Positions 17,457-33,302 of a stretch of 64,000 bases of DNA are shown in pieces. The number at the start of each line of letters is the position of its first letter. Within the stretch, counting starts at the first letter, position 1. Both the position numbers and the translations under genes were made by a program. The notes beneath the pieces are model-generated. The model made no database searches. It was not told the origin of the DNA and saw only the letters and a program-made list of their open reading frames with translations. The DNA is from Verrucomicrobiaceae bacterium (lineage in GTDB: Bacteria > Verrucomicrobiota > Verrucomicrobiia > Verrucomicrobiales > Verrucomicrobiaceae), in NCBI GenBank assembly GCA_016795465.1, contig JAEUHK010000124.1, positions 1 to 64,000 of the forward strand. The letters run 5' to 3'.

Positions 17457-18149
17457 TCAGGTGCCAACGCGTTTGGCGGGGTGTCTCCGAAGCCATCCCA
17501 AGACCAAGGCCCCCAACGCCACGAGGGCTCCCACCATCCACCACCACGCACCTCCATCCTCTGAACTTCCCTGGTCATCCAGTTTCGTTGCGGGCTGGGC
17601 TACTTTGGGCGGCTTGACGGCAGGAGGCGTGATCACCGGCACCTCGGGAACGGGTGGCGCTTGGATTTGAGGAGCCTGCTGTTTTGCTGCGATTGGCACA
17701 GGCGTCAGCCGCTCAGGGTGATCACGGCGTTCACGAAACCATTGAAGCATGACGTCATACTCAGGATGCACTCCTTCAATCAGAGGAAACATCATGTCTC
17801 CTGGACTGAGTCCGCCACTCCCCCAAAACACACCTCCTCGCTCGACGACGTAAAGCATACATACTTGACCCTTCTCCAAGAGGGGTTGCGACACAAACTG
17901 CACGCTGCTTCCTAGAAATGGCTTGTCCGAATTGGCAATATCTAAACTTTTTCCCATAAAGTCCGCCCTACCTTTTAAAACCTCCTCAACTTCTCCCGTC
18001 GCCACATAATAAGAGCTGCCTGCATTCTCATTCTTCACAATTTTCACCCGCACGACATGTAGCTGGGGATTGGCGAAAATATCCTCCTCGACCCCAGTAG
18101 CGTAAAGCGTACAGCGAGACAGTAGGATTAGCACTACAAAGGTTTTCAT
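17457..18149 (-). CDS. Hypothetical exported protein with C-terminal membrane anchor
   Basis: About 230 residues from the ATG at 18149, which overlaps the upstream stop as ATGA (18146-18149). A signal peptide (MKTFVVLILLSRCTLYATG) is followed by a small beta-rich domain (HVVRVKIVKNENAG, ATGEVEEVLKGR). A Pro-rich linker around residues 165-195 leads to one C-terminal helix (WWWMVGALVALGALVLGW) and a basic tail (LRRHPAKRVGT). The layout is an exported domain on a stalk held by a C-terminal anchor, resembling a sorting signal, though no PEP-CTERM or LPXTG motif is present. The ATGA coupling to the large secreted protein suggests the two work as a pair. No family was recognised. Confidence 0.8.
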   Translation of the reverse strand: MKTFVVLILLSRCTLYATGVEEDIFANPQLHVVRVKIVKNENAGSSYYVATGEVEEVLKGRADFMGKSLDIANSDKPFLGSSVQFVSQPLLEKGQVCMLYVVERGGVFWGSGGLSPGDMMFPLIEGVHPEYDVMLQWFRERRDHPERLTPVPIAAKQQAPQIQAPPVPEVPVITPPAVKPPKVAQPATKLDDQGSSEDGGAWWWMVGALVALGALVLGWLRRHPAKRVGT

Positions 18150-20962
18150 TGCCATGTTTTGATGCTTAAAAGGTAGTTCATCGGACTCCACCCAGTGAAC
18201 TTTGGCTGGTCACCGGATACTACAGGCTGAAACTTTTGAGTTCTGGATGTTGTACCGAGCCCTGTGGGCGTCCAACTGGCGGCAGTGTTGAACCGCCCGC
18301 TGCCATCCCACCGCCACTGTGCTCTAGCAAGGACAGTGTACTTATACGGCGCATCAGAAGTTTGAACCGCGAAATCGAGTTCAAAATCATATATCCAAGC
18401 GTTTGTCACAACATACTTGGTCAAGTCCACTATCAAACTAGGAACCTCACCTGACGGACTGTCTTCAGTTGTGAACTGTGTTGCGCCTGACGAAGACCAA
18501 CCGCCCCGCGGAATCACGCTGAATGAATTGAGCCCTCCAGCATTCGATTGGTTATACCACGGACTGGATACCTGCGCGGCCGTTGCGCCAGCTACATCAA
18601 CATGCCACGCACCGCTCTGCACGCTGCATACTTTGATTATGTCAGGAATCCGACCATCAGAGTATGTCGCCCGAGCCTGAGTGAACCGTCCACTTTGGAT
18701 CCACCCGCATCGAAATCTATCCGCGACTCGGGTTTGACCCGCAATATCCGGACCAGTCACAGAACTCACCACCAGTTTGCCTTCCATGGCAGCAGGAGTG
18801 ATTGGTATCAAGGAGGATACGATGCGATTGGGTGAGGATGGATGCTGCCGAGTTAGGAGCGGGCGACAGACGATTTGATTCGAGGCACCCGCAAAATCGA
18901 TCTTGAACTCCACCACATTGACCTCGCGGCTCCACATGTAGTCCTGGTTGATGTAGTAGTTGCAGAGGCCGACGACGGGGCCGCTGTCCCAGAGGATTTC
19001 CACGTCGTTCACATCGCCCGTGGGGCGGCTCATGATACGGCCCCCCGTGGGGTCGATCCACTTGCTGCCCGGCGGCGCTCCAAACGCGGTGTAGCGGTGC
19101 CGCGAATACCCCGGCACATTCAGCGGCCCGCCCCACTCGAACACGGTGATCTTGATCCGGTCCACCGGGGTTGTTGTTCCTGCGTAGGACAAGCCCAAGG
19201 TGAGAAAATCCGAGGCCTGGGTAATGCCTTCCACAAACAGCCGGGTGTCACCCCCCGAGGGGACATTCACCGCTGCCGTGCTTCCTCCCGCACCAATGAG
19301 GCCCGTACGGTCTGGATTGGCCCACACTTTGACATGGGCGGGAATGGCGAGCACATACGTGCTGCTCGGAGGCATCGAAGCCCCCCCGCCCCGGAGAATA
19401 ATGGGCAGGAGGTCCGTGTCCGTTCCTCCCCACCACACGCCACCGCTCCAAGAGCCGGGATAGCGGGCGGTGCTGCCCGCCTGTTTCCAATCGGCTTCGT
19501 TGGCTGAATCGTAATCGTCGTCATCATCATTCAGCGGGAGGAAAGCACCGATCGTCTCCTCGCGCGTCTCATCCAGTTGGTTTCCCATGGTGGTGCCGCG
19601 GATCGTGATGGCGTCCAAATCCGGGGTGATATGCTGGATGCTGTAATACCCATTTCTTGGATCGAAGCGCGGATCAATGGTGTAAACAGGGCTGGTGGTG
19701 GCCCCAGCAGGCGTCCACGACATGACCTTGTGCTCCACCGGCCCGCTTTGTGGGACAAACCTCTCCACCCAAAGGACAGTGCGAGGGTCCCCCGCAGCCA
19801 CCTGCCAACGATACTGGCAGCGCCTTACGCCATAGAAATCCGCGAGATAGCTCTGCGAGCCGTCATCTATCCAGTTTTTGAGATACCGGGCAGGAAGGTC
19901 AATGGACCAAGGTGTCGGTGCAAACCCACCGGTGAAAGGTGGAATCGAGGCATTGGCCTCGGCCTCCATCCCAGATCTGGTATAGGACGATGAAATTGTT
20001 TCTATCACCTCGGACGGCGGGCCGATTATGAAAGGATTGTTAGTGTTGTGCCCCCTGCGTACCGTGTCACCCTCGACGTCCCAAAGTTCCGGCGTGTAAG
20101 GTATCAGCCAGCCGGTGACATCCGGCGGATGATCACCTTGATAAGAGCTCTCTGATCCCGTGGTCTTGGAAATCTCCCATGTGCAGCTTCCCTCAATGTA
20201 TTTGTTCTGAGCCACAGACCAGAGCTTCCACTCCCATTTACGCACCAGGTAGCGATTAGCACGCGTCTGAAAGCCACGGTAACCGTGTCTCCACCGGCTG
20301 ACCTCCTTGGACTCCCCTTCGAGCGCAGGCGTGGGGAAATATACTTGATGTGAACCCGGCGAAGACGCCTGCCCGTTCCCGCCCTGGCTGACCGGGCCGC
20401 TGTTTACCAATGGATCCCAGCCGCTCGCGATCTCAATTGCATCTGTATACCCATCCCAATCGCTGTCCATGTCCTGCACCACGAATGAGAACACCGTTTT
20501 CACCTGGCCCGCATTGACGAGGCGGTAGTCATCATCATCGGCGGTACTTGTCGTCCATGGATTGGGCACATTCCTGCCTGCTGCACGCAGCCTGGAGTAT
20601 ATCGTGTTCACCACCGTCTTGAGCTGCCCGGCATTTACCGCCGCGTAATCATCCCTTGCCACACCCGGCCCAGGAGCGGCGTTCCAAGTGTCGAGCAAGG
20701 TGTGGATTTCAGCTCCCGCACCACCAGGAAGAGTGGCATCCAGGTAAACGGCGGTCTTTGAAACGATGGTCTTGAGCTGGCCGTGGTTCACCACGGCGAA
20801 ATCGTCCACCTCGGACGAAGCGTCAAGCACCCCGTAGGAGGCCCACCAAGCAGGAGGAGCCGCAACGACGCTGGAAGTCAGGCTGAGCACCAGCGCCATG
20901 CTAAGGCAGCAGCGCCAGATGAAAGCTTGGCTGGCTTTGCCTTCAAGAAAGGGGCGTTTCAT
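18146..20962 (-). CDS. Large secreted protein with 'VNxGQLK' repeats
   Basis: About 938 residues from the ATG at 20962; the frame is open to 20980. A long basic n-region precedes the hydrophobic part of the signal peptide (LSMALVLSLTSSVVA). The N-terminal 170 residues hold three copies of a ~45-residue repeat whose core is DFAVVNHGQLKTI, DYAAVNAGQLKTV and DYRLVNAGQVKTV. This 'A(V)NxGQLK' repeat is recurrent in verrucomicrobial surface proteins. An Asp-rich calcium-type segment (DMDSDWDGYTDAIEI) follows, then about 750 residues of probable beta structure without a recognised fold. The stop is ATGA-coupled to the small anchored protein. The gene lies 29 bases below the YadA-head-like gene, so a four-gene surface operon is likely. 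Confidence 0.82.
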   Translation of the reverse strand: MKRPFLEGKASQAFIWRCCLSMALVLSLTSSVVAAPPAWWASYGVLDASSEVDDFAVVNHGQLKTIVSKTAVYLDATLPGGAGAEIHTLLDTWNAAPGPGVARDDYAAVNAGQLKTVVNTIYSRLRAAGRNVPNPWTTSTADDDDYRLVNAGQVKTVFSFVVQDMDSDWDGYTDAIEIASGWDPLVNSGPVSQGGNGQASSPGSHQVYFPTPALEGESKEVSRWRHGYRGFQTRANRYLVRKWEWKLWSVAQNKYIEGSCTWEISKTTGSESSYQGDHPPDVTGWLIPYTPELWDVEGDTVRRGHNTNNPFIIGPPSEVIETISSSYTRSGMEAEANASIPPFTGGFAPTPWSIDLPARYLKNWIDDGSQSYLADFYGVRRCQYRWQVAAGDPRTVLWVERFVPQSGPVEHKVMSWTPAGATTSPVYTIDPRFDPRNGYYSIQHITPDLDAITIRGTTMGNQLDETREETIGAFLPLNDDDDDYDSANEADWKQAGSTARYPGSWSGGVWWGGTDTDLLPIILRGGGASMPPSSTYVLAIPAHVKVWANPDRTGLIGAGGSTAAVNVPSGGDTRLFVEGITQASDFLTLGLSYAGTTTPVDRIKITVFEWGGPLNVPGYSRHRYTAFGAPPGSKWIDPTGGRIMSRPTGDVNDVEILWDSGPVVGLCNYYINQDYMWSREVNVVEFKIDFAGASNQIVCRPLLTRQHPSSPNRIVSSLIPITPAAMEGKLVVSSVTGPDIAGQTRVADRFRCGWIQSGRFTQARATYSDGRIPDIIKVCSVQSGAWHVDVAGATAAQVSSPWYNQSNAGGLNSFSVIPRGGWSSSGATQFTTEDSPSGEVPSLIVDLTKYVVTNAWIYDFELDFAVQTSDAPYKYTVLARAQWRWDGSGRFNTAASWTPTGLGTTSRTQKFQPVVSGDQPKFTGWSPMNYLLSIKTWQ

Positions 20963-20991
20963 GGCGATGTGAAGAAACACAGCGTGGATGA

Positions 20992-22443
20992 TCAGGGCTG
21001 CCCGAGGCCGCCGTCATTCTGGAAAGCAGCATCCATGGGCAGATCCCCTCCGGGCTGCACCCGCACTTTTCTGGCCGTGATGGTGCCCTGTGTGCCTTGA
21101 AAGCCCGTCACATTCAGCGTGCCTTCAATCTCAGCCGCGCCTGCGACAGAAACCGGTGCGGCCAACGACACGCCGCCGGTAATCGTGGCCGGACCATTGA
21201 CCGTCAGGCCGCGGCTGATGGTGGCGGTGCCCAGCACATTCAGCGCCTCGGGCGGGCTGGTGTCCGCATGATTTTTATGCCGGATCGTTGTGCGCCCGCT
21301 GAGCTGCACTTCTAAGGCATTGCTCTTGTGCGGGTTCAACTCGGGGTGGAACCACTCGGTGTAAGGCGAAACCCACGCAGGCGGGAGACCGTTGCCAATC
21401 ACAAAGAGCAAATCCCCTGGCAGCCCGGGCGAGGAAAAGTCATTCCACTGCCCCAAAACGACCTGCCCCGGTCCACCCGTTTTGAGGCCGTAGCCCATCA
21501 AGGCCGTCCTGTCATGCACCGCAGTGGACCAACTGCCGGTCGCAAACGAACTCAGCCCGGCAGCCATGATATTCGGGCCACCCAAAGCCACGGATGAATC
21601 CCCCACAGACCACGCCCAAAAACCCAAGGCCATTGAGGTCGAGCCGCTGGCAAACGTCCAGGCACCAATCGCCGCAGAGGCGTAGCCTGACGCCACATTC
21701 CCCTGCCCCGATGTCAGGCTCGCGCTGCCGCTGGCCGTGCTTCCGATGCCAAACGCTGCGGAGGCGTAACCACTGCCCAGAGTCCCATCCCCCATCGCCA
21801 GCGACCCCGCATCGCTCTGTGTCACCACCTGCCGTCCATTCAAAGTGATCGTGCTCGTCGCCGGATTGAGCACGATCTTCTTCGTCGCATCCGCCGGATC
21901 AAACAACGTCAGCGCATTGTCCGCCCCGCCGAGGCGCATGATGGCCGCGCTCCGCAGCGAGATGTCCTCCGACAAACCCGAACCCGAGAGCGGGCGGTGC
22001 CAAGTGTAGTGAAGCGGGCTGCTGCCCGTGATTGGCGAGGCCTGGGTGCCCTCCACATAATCCGTGAAAAACTCCATGCCCGGCAGGCTGCCCGAAGGAT
22101 TCAAGCGGACCAACCCGCTCCAGTCCTGGCGGCCCAGGCTGCTCGTGGCCTCACGCCCCGTGTTGAGAAACAGGCCACCCGGTGTCAACGCCGAGCGGGT
22201 CAGGTAATCGCCCCCAGGCAAGGTGACACCCATCTGGGCCTCAATCTGCCCTGGATTGAGGAATGATTTGAGCAACCCACTGCCATCGAGCGTCACGGCA
22301 TCGGTGTTCGCTGGTGGCGGATTCACCAGCAGGTTTCCATTGATGGTCGTGAGGTCATTCAACGTTTGCTGCGCGAAAACCGGGGTGGCGAGCATGCTGC
22401 CCAGCACGAAGAGGCGGTAGAGACAGGTTTGATGTGTTTTCAT
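20992..22443 (-). CDS. YadA-head/Hep_Hag-like surface fibre protein
   Basis: A 483-residue secreted protein (signal peptide ending LATPVFAQQ). Residues about 215-320 contain repeated 14-residue-type units with the small-residue pattern of trimeric adhesin heads: GYASAAFGIGSTASGSAS, GYASAAIGAWTFASGSTS, then VGDSSVALGGPNI. These fold as a left-handed beta-roll in YadA-type trimers. No C-terminal YadA anchor barrel was found. The C-terminal part has phage-tail-like 'LNVLGTATISRGLTVNG' repeats common in verrucomicrobial fibre-like proteins. A trimeric extracellular fibre is a reasonable inference. Confidence 0.78.
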   Translation of the reverse strand: MKTHQTCLYRLFVLGSMLATPVFAQQTLNDLTTINGNLLVNPPPANTDAVTLDGSGLLKSFLNPGQIEAQMGVTLPGGDYLTRSALTPGGLFLNTGREATSSLGRQDWSGLVRLNPSGSLPGMEFFTDYVEGTQASPITGSSPLHYTWHRPLSGSGLSEDISLRSAAIMRLGGADNALTLFDPADATKKIVLNPATSTITLNGRQVVTQSDAGSLAMGDGTLGSGYASAAFGIGSTASGSASLTSGQGNVASGYASAAIGAWTFASGSTSMALGFWAWSVGDSSVALGGPNIMAAGLSSFATGSWSTAVHDRTALMGYGLKTGGPGQVVLGQWNDFSSPGLPGDLLFVIGNGLPPAWVSPYTEWFHPELNPHKSNALEVQLSGRTTIRHKNHADTSPPEALNVLGTATISRGLTVNGPATITGGVSLAAPVSVAGAAEIEGTLNVTGFQGTQGTITARKVRVQPGGDLPMDAAFQNDGGLGQP

Positions 22444-22506: not shown

Positions 22507-23388
22507 TCACCCGCCGACGCTCACGCTGGCCTCCGCGCTCCACTGGCCGACCTGGTGGTCGTCCACGCGGTAGATGGCGCGGTATTTCCATTTCGTGAGG
22601 GCGGCGGGGAAAGGGGTCGTGTCCAGGTAGCCGGGCGTGGTGTCGTAGGTGAGGACGACCCAGCCTTTGCCATCGGCGCGGTCCACCTGGATTTCGCATT
22701 GGTCCAGGAACTTGGCGAGGCCCTGCCAGCCCCAGCCGATCTGCACGCCAGCAGCGGAGACGATGGCGGTGATGTCCGGGCGCACCAGCTCGAAGTCTGG
22801 CGTGGTCTCCACGGAGCCGAGGATGCCCAAGTCCACGCACATCGGCTCCGGGCAGGCATCGTTTTCCTTCAACTCGGCAATGAGATCAAAAATACGGGAC
22901 AGCGCCCCGGCGGGACGTGCCACCACGCCATCCGGCAGCGCGGGCGGCGTATGCACCGGGAGCACCAGCGGGCCGCTGCCGCTCATCGCCTGCTCCAGCG
23001 CGTTCGTGGCGGCTTTCCCATGTGTGCGCACGGATTCCAGCCAGGAGACAAGCAGATAAACCAGCCAGCGGGCATCCGCGATGATGTCCGCCACGCGTGG
23101 GGCGGGCAGGCCGAGGGCGGCGGCGTGAAGGGCCAGCTTCAGGCGGAAGTTTTCCAGCCAGACGGCCTGGTCTGCCTGGCGTGTGGGGAAGTAGTTCTGG
23201 CGTTTCATACGGGTGTGACGGTGGGTGGTGGAGGATGGATGAGGAGGAATCACATAGGGCACGAAACCGGGATCACCCGGCTCACGGGCATAGCCGAGGC
23301 CATCGGGGCCGAAAAAGAGGTTCGGGTCGTCGAAGGTATAACCGCGGCCGGTGTGGGGATTGATGGCATCGAAGTGGAGCAGGCGCAT
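22507..23388 (-). CDS. Hypothetical protein with C-terminal FN3-like domain (two family units fused in frame)
   Basis: Two starts are plausible. The ATG at 23208 gives a 233-residue protein beginning MKRQNYFPTRQADQAVWLEN. The ATG at 23388 adds 60 residues containing YTFDDPNLFFGPDGLG and REPGDPGFVPY, which look like a separate short family but read through in frame without a stop. The main part is helical for about 120 residues, then beta-rich with an FN3-like end (EIQVDRADGKGW, YDTTPGYLDTTPF, KWKYRAIYRVDDHQVGQWS). Similar proteins recur in Verrucomicrobiota next to fibre or collagen-like genes, but function is unknown. It is upstream of and probably co-transcribed with the YadA-head-like gene, with a 21-bp DNA array beyond it. 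Confidence 0.72.
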   Translation of the reverse strand: MRLLHFDAINPHTGRGYTFDDPNLFFGPDGLGYAREPGDPGFVPYVIPPHPSSTTHRHTRMKRQNYFPTRQADQAVWLENFRLKLALHAAALGLPAPRVADIIADARWLVYLLVSWLESVRTHGKAATNALEQAMSGSGPLVLPVHTPPALPDGVVARPAGALSRIFDLIAELKENDACPEPMCVDLGILGSVETTPDFELVRPDITAIVSAAGVQIGWGWQGLAKFLDQCEIQVDRADGKGWVVLTYDTTPGYLDTTPFPAALTKWKYRAIYRVDDHQVGQWSAEASVSVGG

Positions 23389-23638
23389 AAGGTCGCTGCG
23401 CTCCCGCCGTGAGCGGTAGGCAAAGGGCGTGGAGCCCTTGAAATCCCACGCTGTGCCGTGTGAGCTGTAAGGGGCGCGGATTCCGCCTCGCACGGTGTTG
23501 GGGCTTTCCTGCAGGGATCGTCCTCGTGCTCGTTCTCCCCCTCGTCCTCGATTCTGGGAGCCTGTTCCATCGTGTTTCGAGGGTGAAAAAGGACGGAAAG
23601 GGCCTCTCCGAGCCCAAAAAGCACCGAAACGGAGAAAA

Positions 23639-23866
23639 GGGGGCGGTTTCCTGGAAAAAGGGGGCGCTGAAAAACGCTCCGGGATGGCCCCCAGAAAGAA
23701 AGGGGGCGGCGAAAAACCCGAACGGGGCACCCCCATGGAAAAAGGGGGCGCTGAAAAACGAAAAGGGGGCGATCCCGCCGAAAAAGGGGCTGCCCCCGGA
23801 AGAAATGGGGGCGCTCACCTGAGAAACGGGGGCCATCCCGCAGAAAAAGGGGACGCCCCCTTTTTT
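23639..23866. repeat. Degenerate 21-bp phased tandem array (array A)
   Basis: The motif (A)4-5(G)4-5CG recurs with its closing C at 23644, 23665, 23707, 23728, 23749, 23770, 23790, 23812, 23833 and 23854. That is multiples of 21 bases with at most one base of drift over eleven phases (one unit, near 23686, is degenerate). The last unit forms a perfect 9-bp A5G4/C4T5 hairpin (23844-23852 with 23857-23865). Shorter GGGG/CCCC palindromes sit near 23729 and 23791. On the minus strand the array would encode proline/phenylalanine heptads (APFFxxx), but all minus frames are open, so coding is not supported. Confidence 0.8.
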
Positions 23867-23952
23867 CAGCTCGCAAGCCCGAGAAACCCGCGATGCTCCC
23901 AAAAAACCGGCTCGTGCTTGAAAAGGGCTTTTCGCCTGAATGCGCCGCCTTA

Positions 23953-23986
23953 CTGCCCTCTGCCCTCTGCCCTCTGCCCTCTGCCC
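23953..23986. repeat. Heptanucleotide tandem repeat (CTGCCCT)n
   Basis: Almost five perfect copies of the unit CTGCCCT lie in a row, 34 bases in all. It is a simple-sequence tract outside any supported gene and may vary in copy number between strains. Confidence 0.9.
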
Positions 23987-24186
23987 AGCAAATCCCTCAG
24001 GTGAAGGTCAACCGAATTCCCGAGAAATACCCTTCCCCCATCTAGGTGGTCAGCCGGGGTGTGCATTGGCCATGAGTGGTTGGACTGCATGATTTTTGCG
24101 GAATTCTTTTCGGTATAACCCGAGTGACCTTTTTTCCGCAATGTTTTTTTCCTACCCGCTGGCACGTCCCAAGGACACCGGGCTTT

Positions 24187-31681: not shown

Positions 31682-32128
31682 TTACCTCCGCAGCGCATTG
31701 ATCAGCTCGTCCATCTTGTCGAGCAGGGCCTGGATCTGCGCTGGGTTGTAGGTGCCGTCTGCGCTCTGGTTCAAGGTGCTCACGCCGTTGCTGTTATTGC
31801 TGCACTGGCTGAGCGTGTTGAGGAGGCCGTTGTTGAGATCGGTCTGCGTCACTTCGCCGGGCGGGCCTTGGGGGCCGGTGGGGCCTTGTGGCCCTTCAGG
31901 GCCGGGTGGGCCTTGCGGGCCGCCGGGGTCTCCCTGTGGCCCTTGGGGCCCGGGCGGACCTTGCTGCCCTTGAGGGCCTTCGGGGCCTTGCGCTCCGGCG
32001 GGTCCTTCCGGCCCTGGCGGTCCGGCGGGGATGGCGTCGATGAGCTCTTTGAGGCCTTGAAACTGGCCGCGGAACATGGCGGAGGTGAGTTCCGCGTTGT
32101 GGACGGGGACGTTGGGATCGAAGGGCAT
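31682..32128 (-). CDS. Collagen-like protein with Gly-X-Y repeats
   Basis: A 148-residue protein with a ~35-residue N-terminal head ([20 protein letters not shown]). About 18 uninterrupted-to-slightly-broken G-P-P/G-P-Q triplets follow at residues 36-91. The C-terminal globular end is helical ([21 protein letters not shown]) and could trimerise. Bacterial collagen-like stalks form triple helices in phage tails and surface fibres. No signal peptide is seen, so the protein may be cytoplasmic, phage-derived or exported by another route. It is 87 bases below the helical hypothetical gene, same strand, probably one operon. Confidence 0.85.
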
Positions 32129-32215: not shown

Positions 32216-32692
32216 TTACGGGGCGGGGGGCGGTGTGGGCTGCTGGCGGCTGCGGCGGGCGAAACGCTGGCCGAAGGCTTGCACAAAGGCGTCATACTGG
32301 CCGCTGGTGTTCAGCGCCTTCGCCACGCGGTAGATGTCGAGCGCGGCCACATAGGCATCGCTCAGCGCGGACATGCAGTTGTCGCCGGCCATTTCGGCGG
32401 TCTGGTTGGCTTTGGCGCAGATGGGCAGGTATTGGCGGCCGAGGGCGATGTCCTCGGCGAGGGCGGCCAGATTGACATCGGCGGGCATGGCACCGGGGTT
32501 TTGCTGGGCGAACTGGAGGGCCTGGTCGAGCAGGGTCATGTCGGCAGCTTCGATCTTGGTGAGGCGGCGGCGGTCCTCCGGGGTGAGGGAGTGGCTGCTG
32601 TCGGCCATCTTGGTCTGCGCGGCGGTGAGATCGGCGAGGATCGCATCGCGCTGGGCATCGGTGAGGGCGGCGGAGATGAGGTTCTGGTTCAT
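32216..32692 (-). CDS. Helical hypothetical protein of the fibre-associated type
   Basis: A 158-residue, Ala/Gln-rich, almost entirely helical protein from the ATG at 32692 (MNQNLISAALTDAQRDAILA). The frame is open further up to 32974 but that part reads as low-complexity sequence. It has the pattern TPEDRRRLTKIEAADMTLLD and a basic C-terminus (FARRSRQQP). Similar small proteins are recurrent in Verrucomicrobiota genomes next to tail-fibre or collagen-like genes, but no function is known. It is the first gene of a probable two-gene unit with the collagen-like protein, and it lies below the 42-bp hairpin array. Confidence 0.72.
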   Translation of the reverse strand: MNQNLISAALTDAQRDAILADLTAAQTKMADSSHSLTPEDRRRLTKIEAADMTLLDQALQFAQQNPGAMPADVNLAALAEDIALGRQYLPICAKANQTAEMAGDNCMSALSDAYVAALDIYRVAKALNTSGQYDAFVQAFGQRFARRSRQQPTPPPAP

Positions 32693-32928
32693 GGGGCGGC
32701 GTGGGTTGCTGGCCGGCGGCCCTGGTTCATCAAGCCGCAAACCGCTGTCGAGCCTGAGTCCAGTGTCGAGCCGAGCCATGTTGGGTTGGGTGAGCGGGAG
32801 GTTGAGTGCCCGCTGGTTGGAGCGGATTGCACCAAAAACGCCGCCGGAACTCAAGAATATAATTTCCACGATGGAGCGGCATTCGGGAAAAAAGGTGCTC
32901 GCGATGTGCTCGGAGGGCTTCCATTTGA

Positions 32929-33082
32929 GAAAATTTCGCAAATGGACGGGAAATTTTCTGAAATGACGGAGCAAAAAGGCCGGCTGGAGGACCTTTTTGC
33001 TCGATCAGAGGTGAAAAGAGCGCGGCGCACCGGCCTTTTTTCACTTCCCGCCGGGCAAAAAGGACATCGGGAGCACCTTTTT
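32929..33082. repeat. Array of four hairpins spaced exactly 42 bp (array B)
   Basis: Hairpin arms are 32929-32937/32950-32958 (9 bp), 32969-32979/32992-33002 (11 bp), 33011-33020/33035-33044 (10 pairs, one G-U) and 33057-33063/33076-33082 (7 bp). Their centres fall at 32943.5, 32985.5, 33027.5 and 33069.5, so each is 42 bases from the next. Three of the four loops are exactly 12 bases. The arm sequences differ between units while pairing is kept. A decayed unit is visible near 32886-32922. Confidence 0.85.
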
Positions 33083-33302
33083 TCTGAAACGGCGGTGAAA
33101 CGAGGCGGAATGGCGGCCTTTCAATTCGGTGCCGAAGGGCGCAGAGGGTGCGCCCCCGGTAGTTTTACCGACAAGATTGGAACGGAGAAAAGGATTTACA
33201 TGCCCATGCCGCCAAGATACAAGCCGTGCATCAATCTCTCACCGCCTATCGAATAGCTTTTTCTCTCCATCGAATTCTGCGCAGTCGGAATTCTTCAAAC
33301 GG

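Follow-up and report, generated by a model that had tools for sequence, protein, structure and literature searches.

The OR and OL regions of phage lambda are tandem operators of Cro/CI-type repressors, with three sites. Plasmid iterons are repeats of 19-22 bp, and the centromere array sopC of the F plasmid is built of 43-bp repeats. Palindromic REP/BIME units (GTAG and CGTC families) occur in Verrucomicrobia; REPs are dispersed copies of one sequence, and head-tail tandems are under-represented (PMC3733652). Here we describe helically phased arrays that are a real, module-bound DNA-level element across Verrucomicrobial families. We found no paper on such arrays in Verrucomicrobia, and neither a Methylacidiphilum paper nor the REP paper (PMC3733652), both of which were checked, yielded a match to them.

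The window analysed is a 64-kb stretch of contig C125 from a 6.76-Mb Verrucomicrobial draft genome. A first-pass annotation had claimed a motif in 21-base phase from 23644 to 23854, and the phase was borne out: the self-match of array 1 at lags 21/42/63 is 0.54 against 0.283 ± 0.020 in 3000 dinucleotide shuffles (z 12.8), none of which exceeded 0.39 at any period of 10-31. The G4-5 run starts in phase in nine of the eleven phases; the run at 23724 is shifted by +1, and at phase 23681 GGGATGG takes its place. Most G4-5 runs are directly preceded by A3-5, giving A-tracts in phase at 21-bp spacing. By scan the phased stretch covers ~23590-23910, beside which lies a perfect 7-bp tandem repeat, (CTGCCCT)x4.9, at 23953-23986; 7-bp repeats like TCTCCGC near modules in genome G016 resemble it. 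The array 1 motif recurs on contig C32 and in G016, a pattern search matching only the C32 paralog and one weak site. A sigma-70 promoter scan around array 1 found none. The 42-bp array placed earlier at 32929-33082 is also real, with slightly wider limits (Table 1) and z42 = 6.0-6.4. Both arrays lie, as had been noted, upstream of a small-protein gene that is followed on the same strand by a YadA-head-like or collagen-like gene.

Table 1 Features of the two arrays and their operons. Coordinates are window positions unless a contig is named.
Feature	Position	Strand	Details
21-bp phased array 1	23639..23866	.	11 phases A3-5 G4-5 C; GCCCCC arms between, every 42 bp
Paralogous copy of array 1	G000:C32:138360-138681		22 substitutions, no indel in 244 bp (C125/C32 alignment)
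Two open minus-strand frames through array 1	23250..24007	-	23996-23252 and 24007-23284
Small-protein gene downstream of array 1	22507..23388	-	N-terminus MRLLHFDAINPHTGRGYTFDDPNLFFG; conserved 233-aa part begins MKRQNYFPTRQ at 23208
YadA-head-like fibre gene, array 1 operon	20992..22443	-	Pfam YadA_head E 4e-4, below curated cut-off
Large protein gene after YadA-head-like gene, same direction	18146..20980	-	no family match
Array 2	32926..33122	.	AAAAAGG and CCTTTTT arms, 42-bp period; inverted pairs, e.g. GAGCAAAAAGG...CCTTTTTGCTC
Small-protein gene downstream of array 2	32216..32779	-	N-terminus MARLDTGLRLDSGLRLDEPGPP
Collagen-like fibre gene, array 2 module	31682..32128	-	Pfam Collagen E 1e-7

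The 233-aa protein matched no Pfam family, and a tblastn search of phages with the small protein gave no match. Its predicted structure (pLDDT 85, pTM 0.53) combines a helical N-terminal half with an Fn3-like C-terminal half, a fold in keeping with a surface role. At their N-termini the products of the modules' main genes carry short repeats rich in W or F (MNWDxGxWD, MALWNSGxTW, FDDPNLFFG), the window's subfamily being of the FDDPNLFFG type. A threefold short N-terminal repeat is common to different small-protein families of the modules (MALWNSGxTWxSG, MNWDxGxWDxG, MARLDTGLRLDSGLRLDEP) and is perhaps an assembly or export signal.

The downstream small-protein gene is present in eight copies in the window's genome, each with a phased array upstream. 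The distribution of the family is patchy (22 of 56 genomes), with up to ~20 modules per genome; the named genomes of relatives are mostly Verrucomicrobiaceae and Prosthecobacter MAGs. Where sufficient upstream sequence is available, an array immediately precedes the gene at 42 of 43 loci and at a further 33 of 34, the latter including Chthoniobacteraceae and other families and two loci below z 8; the total is 75 of 77. Random DNA (400 kb) contained one array, without the small-protein gene. The proposal that a phased binding or structural element is tied to these surface operons thus holds far beyond the window as regards the tie, and two-turn arrays also occur in a second type of small-protein/collagen module; binding by a protein, the other part of the proposal, is putative.

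A census of 1.54 Mb, part of it targeted, gave 13 strong arrays of period 21 and two of period 22, and none of period 15, 20, 27 or 30-33. Periods 18 and 24 were represented by a single array apiece; the two lie in long open frames, one belonging to a collagen-like gene. Arrays also occur outside recognised modules. A solo 42-bp array (GGGATGAACACGAAAC) lies between a topoisomerase-like gene and lspA at G000:C32:76126-76398, in the L031/L028 region, with no surface gene recognised adjoining. A 22-bp array of TTTGAGCTCAAA palindromes at G000:C119 ~177650-177900 has no recognised module; an HNH gene is nearby and a weak XRE match ~1.9 kb away. A solo 21-bp array in G016 (L108:3141-3674) has the same 5' head sequence as the L089 array and no 233-aa gene, and is a possible module remnant.

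The array motif is specific to the locus, the 74 arrays falling into 43 groups by common 12-mers, and is common to orthologs (for example GGTAGCnnTACC in six). The arrays of the C8/C10 paralogs differ by 64 substitutions and no indel in 456 bp, and overall, at 14-28% divergence, the phase persists across 450 bp with no indel in the array. Several orthologs have the same number of units. Loss of phase in relatives, which the first-pass annotation had named as the observation that would speak against its proposal, was not seen at up to ~28% divergence. In most pairs with gene dS >0.25 the leader dS is lower than that of the gene (e.g. 0.17 vs 0.44 and 0.04 vs 0.59), and in some closer pairs it is not. 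In the paralogous modules L240 and L242 (G282) the arrays are 95% identical and the surface genes have a dS of 0.59, which would reflect either gene conversion or a strongly constrained array.

These data bear on whether the arrays are a functionless minisatellite, a mutational by-product of slippage and hairpin template switching. Template switching is able to make palindromes, and some arrays (L089, L090, L095) are nearly perfect, recent expansions. However, the phase is retained without indels at considerable divergence, the array mostly evolves more slowly than synonymous sites, the period is confined to 21/22 and the association with one gene family is almost complete, so we regard such an origin as highly improbable.

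As 21 bp is seven codons, the array could instead be the heptad repeat region of a leader protein, and the reading frames give this some substance. Of the 74 arrays of the first type, 61 are open in the frame whose stop overlaps the next start codon, against 36 and 38 in the other two frames and 31-33 in each reverse frame; with one array per group this frame is open in 32 of 43, against 21 and 25. In 45 of 74 loci the array is traversed by an open frame whose stop meets the next start codon (ATGA, TGATG, TAATG), and in 20 of the 25 arrays with a single open frame that frame is the coupled one. The array is therefore probably translated in many loci, where the leader frame looks, from its sequence, as if it were kept open and translationally coupled. 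The lengths of many indels between orthologs are also divisible by 3 or 21. Such coupling to the start codon was not seen in the window's FDDPNLFFG subfamily. Through array 1 itself, where all three minus frames had been described as open, one contains a TGA at ~23815-23817. The other two are open, as are frames in the paralog and the ortholog, and neither stop coincides with the start codon at 23388 in the window copy.

The array nevertheless does not evolve as a protein-coding repeat. Substitutions between the C8/C10 arrays are spread evenly over codon positions (20/23/21), as opposed to 7/5/41 or 13/11/60 in the adjoining gene. The omega of the leader frame is about 0.8 (mostly 0.6-1.3, range 0.5-2.1), compared with about 0.1 (0.0-0.23) for the gene, and amino-acid-level purifying selection in one array frame was not found. 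Owing to a conserved +1 shift in the L012 orthologs, the two halves of the array encode different peptides, VAIP and GSHP/GRPT, from one DNA motif. Together with dS, these observations indicate that the constraint acts on the DNA rather than on the peptide. The two leader proteins tested have no family match except a compositional one, and seven arrays of the second type have 22-bp periods and stops in all six frames. What survives of the suggested coding-heptad origin is that the array is probably translated within a leader frame in many loci; we consider it unlikely that the array is there as a protein repeat.

In 38 of 74 loci the gene directly upstream of the array, on the same strand and typically 60-370 bp away, encodes a Cro/CI-type (XRE) helix-turn-helix protein assigned to HTH_3 by Pfam. 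Arrays are more alike where the XRE proteins are more alike, even when gene similarity is controlled for (partial Mantel r 0.31 to 0.36, p 0.0005), a link that physical linkage alone could produce, and there are exceptions: L100 and L101 have near-identical XRE proteins and different arrays, L080 and L177 similar arrays and different XRE proteins. These pairs, with exceptions in the second type, led us to reject a rule by which equal XRE proteins have equal motifs. No XRE gene adjoins the arrays of the window's subfamily, including the window's own; one relative has a LuxR-type gene upstream and another a response regulator gene.

The second array type lies directly upstream of a gene of another XRE subfamily in all eight loci found in the 56 genomes, five of which were fetched by XRE sequence alone, without reference to arrays. 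On contigs of sufficient length the XRE gene is followed by genes for small proteins whose N-termini resemble MSLRYDTSPPLRMDAGLRFDAG, and in several loci collagen-like fibre proteins come next. The eighth array has a period of 21 bp, so that across both types the spacing is mostly 22 bp in untranslated DNA and 21 bp in a leader frame. As these non-coding arrays have the same design, the element is separable from the coding question. The recognition helices in this type are alike and the motifs mostly unrelated between loci, which argues against a simple one-to-one code. The arrays of L287, L289, L290 and L292 have common palindromic units (AAATCCGAGCTCGGATTT-like) and then a locus-specific motif, upstream of the XRE gene.

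Dyad symmetry exceeds that of column-shuffled controls at z>2 in 22 of 40 arrays, not in all, and the spacing by whole helical turns is kept among orthologs. The nearly perfect recent arrays of G016 have little symmetry. At the best axis, GT mismatches (564) are as frequent as AC mismatches (565), and both strands fold alike, indicating that the symmetry belongs to double-stranded DNA and not to RNA pairing. This is relevant to a further explanation, in which the array is transcribed into serial hairpins of an RNA leader with an effect on termination or translation, among them terminator-like stems at array 1. About half of the arrays do fold at z < -2, and four terminator-like minus-strand matches lie within or next to array 1 (region total 6 vs 2.4 in shuffles). 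Yet there is no strand preference in folding, a four-way ortholog alignment contains no double compensatory change inside the array, and an Rfam scan gave only one weak match, on array 2, far below the gathering score. Neither strand-specific pairing nor covariation was thus found, and we judge the RNA leader to be very unlikely.

It has also to be considered that phased palindromes serve to recombine fibre modules, or to wrap or curve DNA, with no specific regulator. Self-similar arrays whose motifs turn over between loci, the many modules per genome, the two G282 paralogs and the in-phase A-tracts of array 1 would all suit such an element. It does not explain the XRE neighbours, however, and the stable unit number among several orthologs also argues against it. 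Most arrays contain no A-tracts, so curvature was rejected as a shared basis. Overall this explanation appears quite unlikely.

We favour the interpretation that the array is a helically phased tandem operator at fibre operons, bound cooperatively by the neighbouring XRE regulator, and assign it a probability of about 0.5 on the evidence of sequence comparison. It would bring together the features that can be read directly from the DNA, namely phasing, module association, symmetry, constraint, XRE neighbours and the open leader frame. Dyad-symmetric sites two helical turns apart would place dimeric regulators on one face of the helix, the dimers would bind cooperatively along the series of sites, and the array-bound regulator would silence or switch the surface-fibre operon. 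The prime candidate for binding is the Cro/CI-type protein encoded beside the array in most modules, each module having its own motif; for the window's subfamily, without an adjoining XRE gene, we assume that the regulator is encoded elsewhere. Arrays that precede the XRE gene and are not translated would usually have the 22-bp spacing. Where the XRE gene precedes the array and the surface gene follows it, the array being contained in a leader frame whose stop meets the next start codon, the spacing would be 21 bp; we propose that this keeps the frame open and allows translation of the operon message to continue.

More tentatively, the arrays may form a class of regulatory DNA in which the geometry is invariant across the phylum (two-turn phasing, self-similarity and dyad symmetry) and the motif is rewritten at each locus with a module-specific XRE protein, giving each fibre operon an insulated cooperative switch. 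If so, they would constitute a natural library of dozens of unrelated operators of fixed geometry, each beside a candidate regulator, in which joint shifts of specificity in cooperative repressors and their sites could be tested directly. They would also offer a handle on how Verrucomicrobia control surface-fibre families of unknown use, and an example of a DNA element that a translated frame can accommodate once its spacing is 21 rather than 22 bp.

Among known systems, phased A-tract curved DNA resembles array 1, with its A-tracts at 21-bp spacing, whereas most other arrays are GC-rich and lack A-tracts. REP/BIME elements are similar in their palindromic units (PMC3733652), and one array motif contains GTAG. 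Unlike theirs, the array sequence is locus-specific, period and symmetry being the only common features; identity with REP/BIME was rejected, as the motif differs at each module and dispersal of the same palindrome was not observed. Plasmid iterons and centromeres likewise consist of direct repeats in helical phase (19-22 or ~42 bp, in some cases with inverted repeats), arrayed beside the gene of a binding protein (here a candidate one). In contrast, the Verrucomicrobial arrays are chromosomal, numerous in each genome and located beside surface-fibre genes, and the modules examined contained no recognisable rep or par gene. Compared with lambda OR/OL, the arrays have up to 20 or more sites rather than three, their motif varies by module and arrays of the first type sit within a leader frame that is probably translated; they are alike in having tandem dyad-symmetric sites, spaced near two helical turns, by the gene of an HTH_3 regulator.
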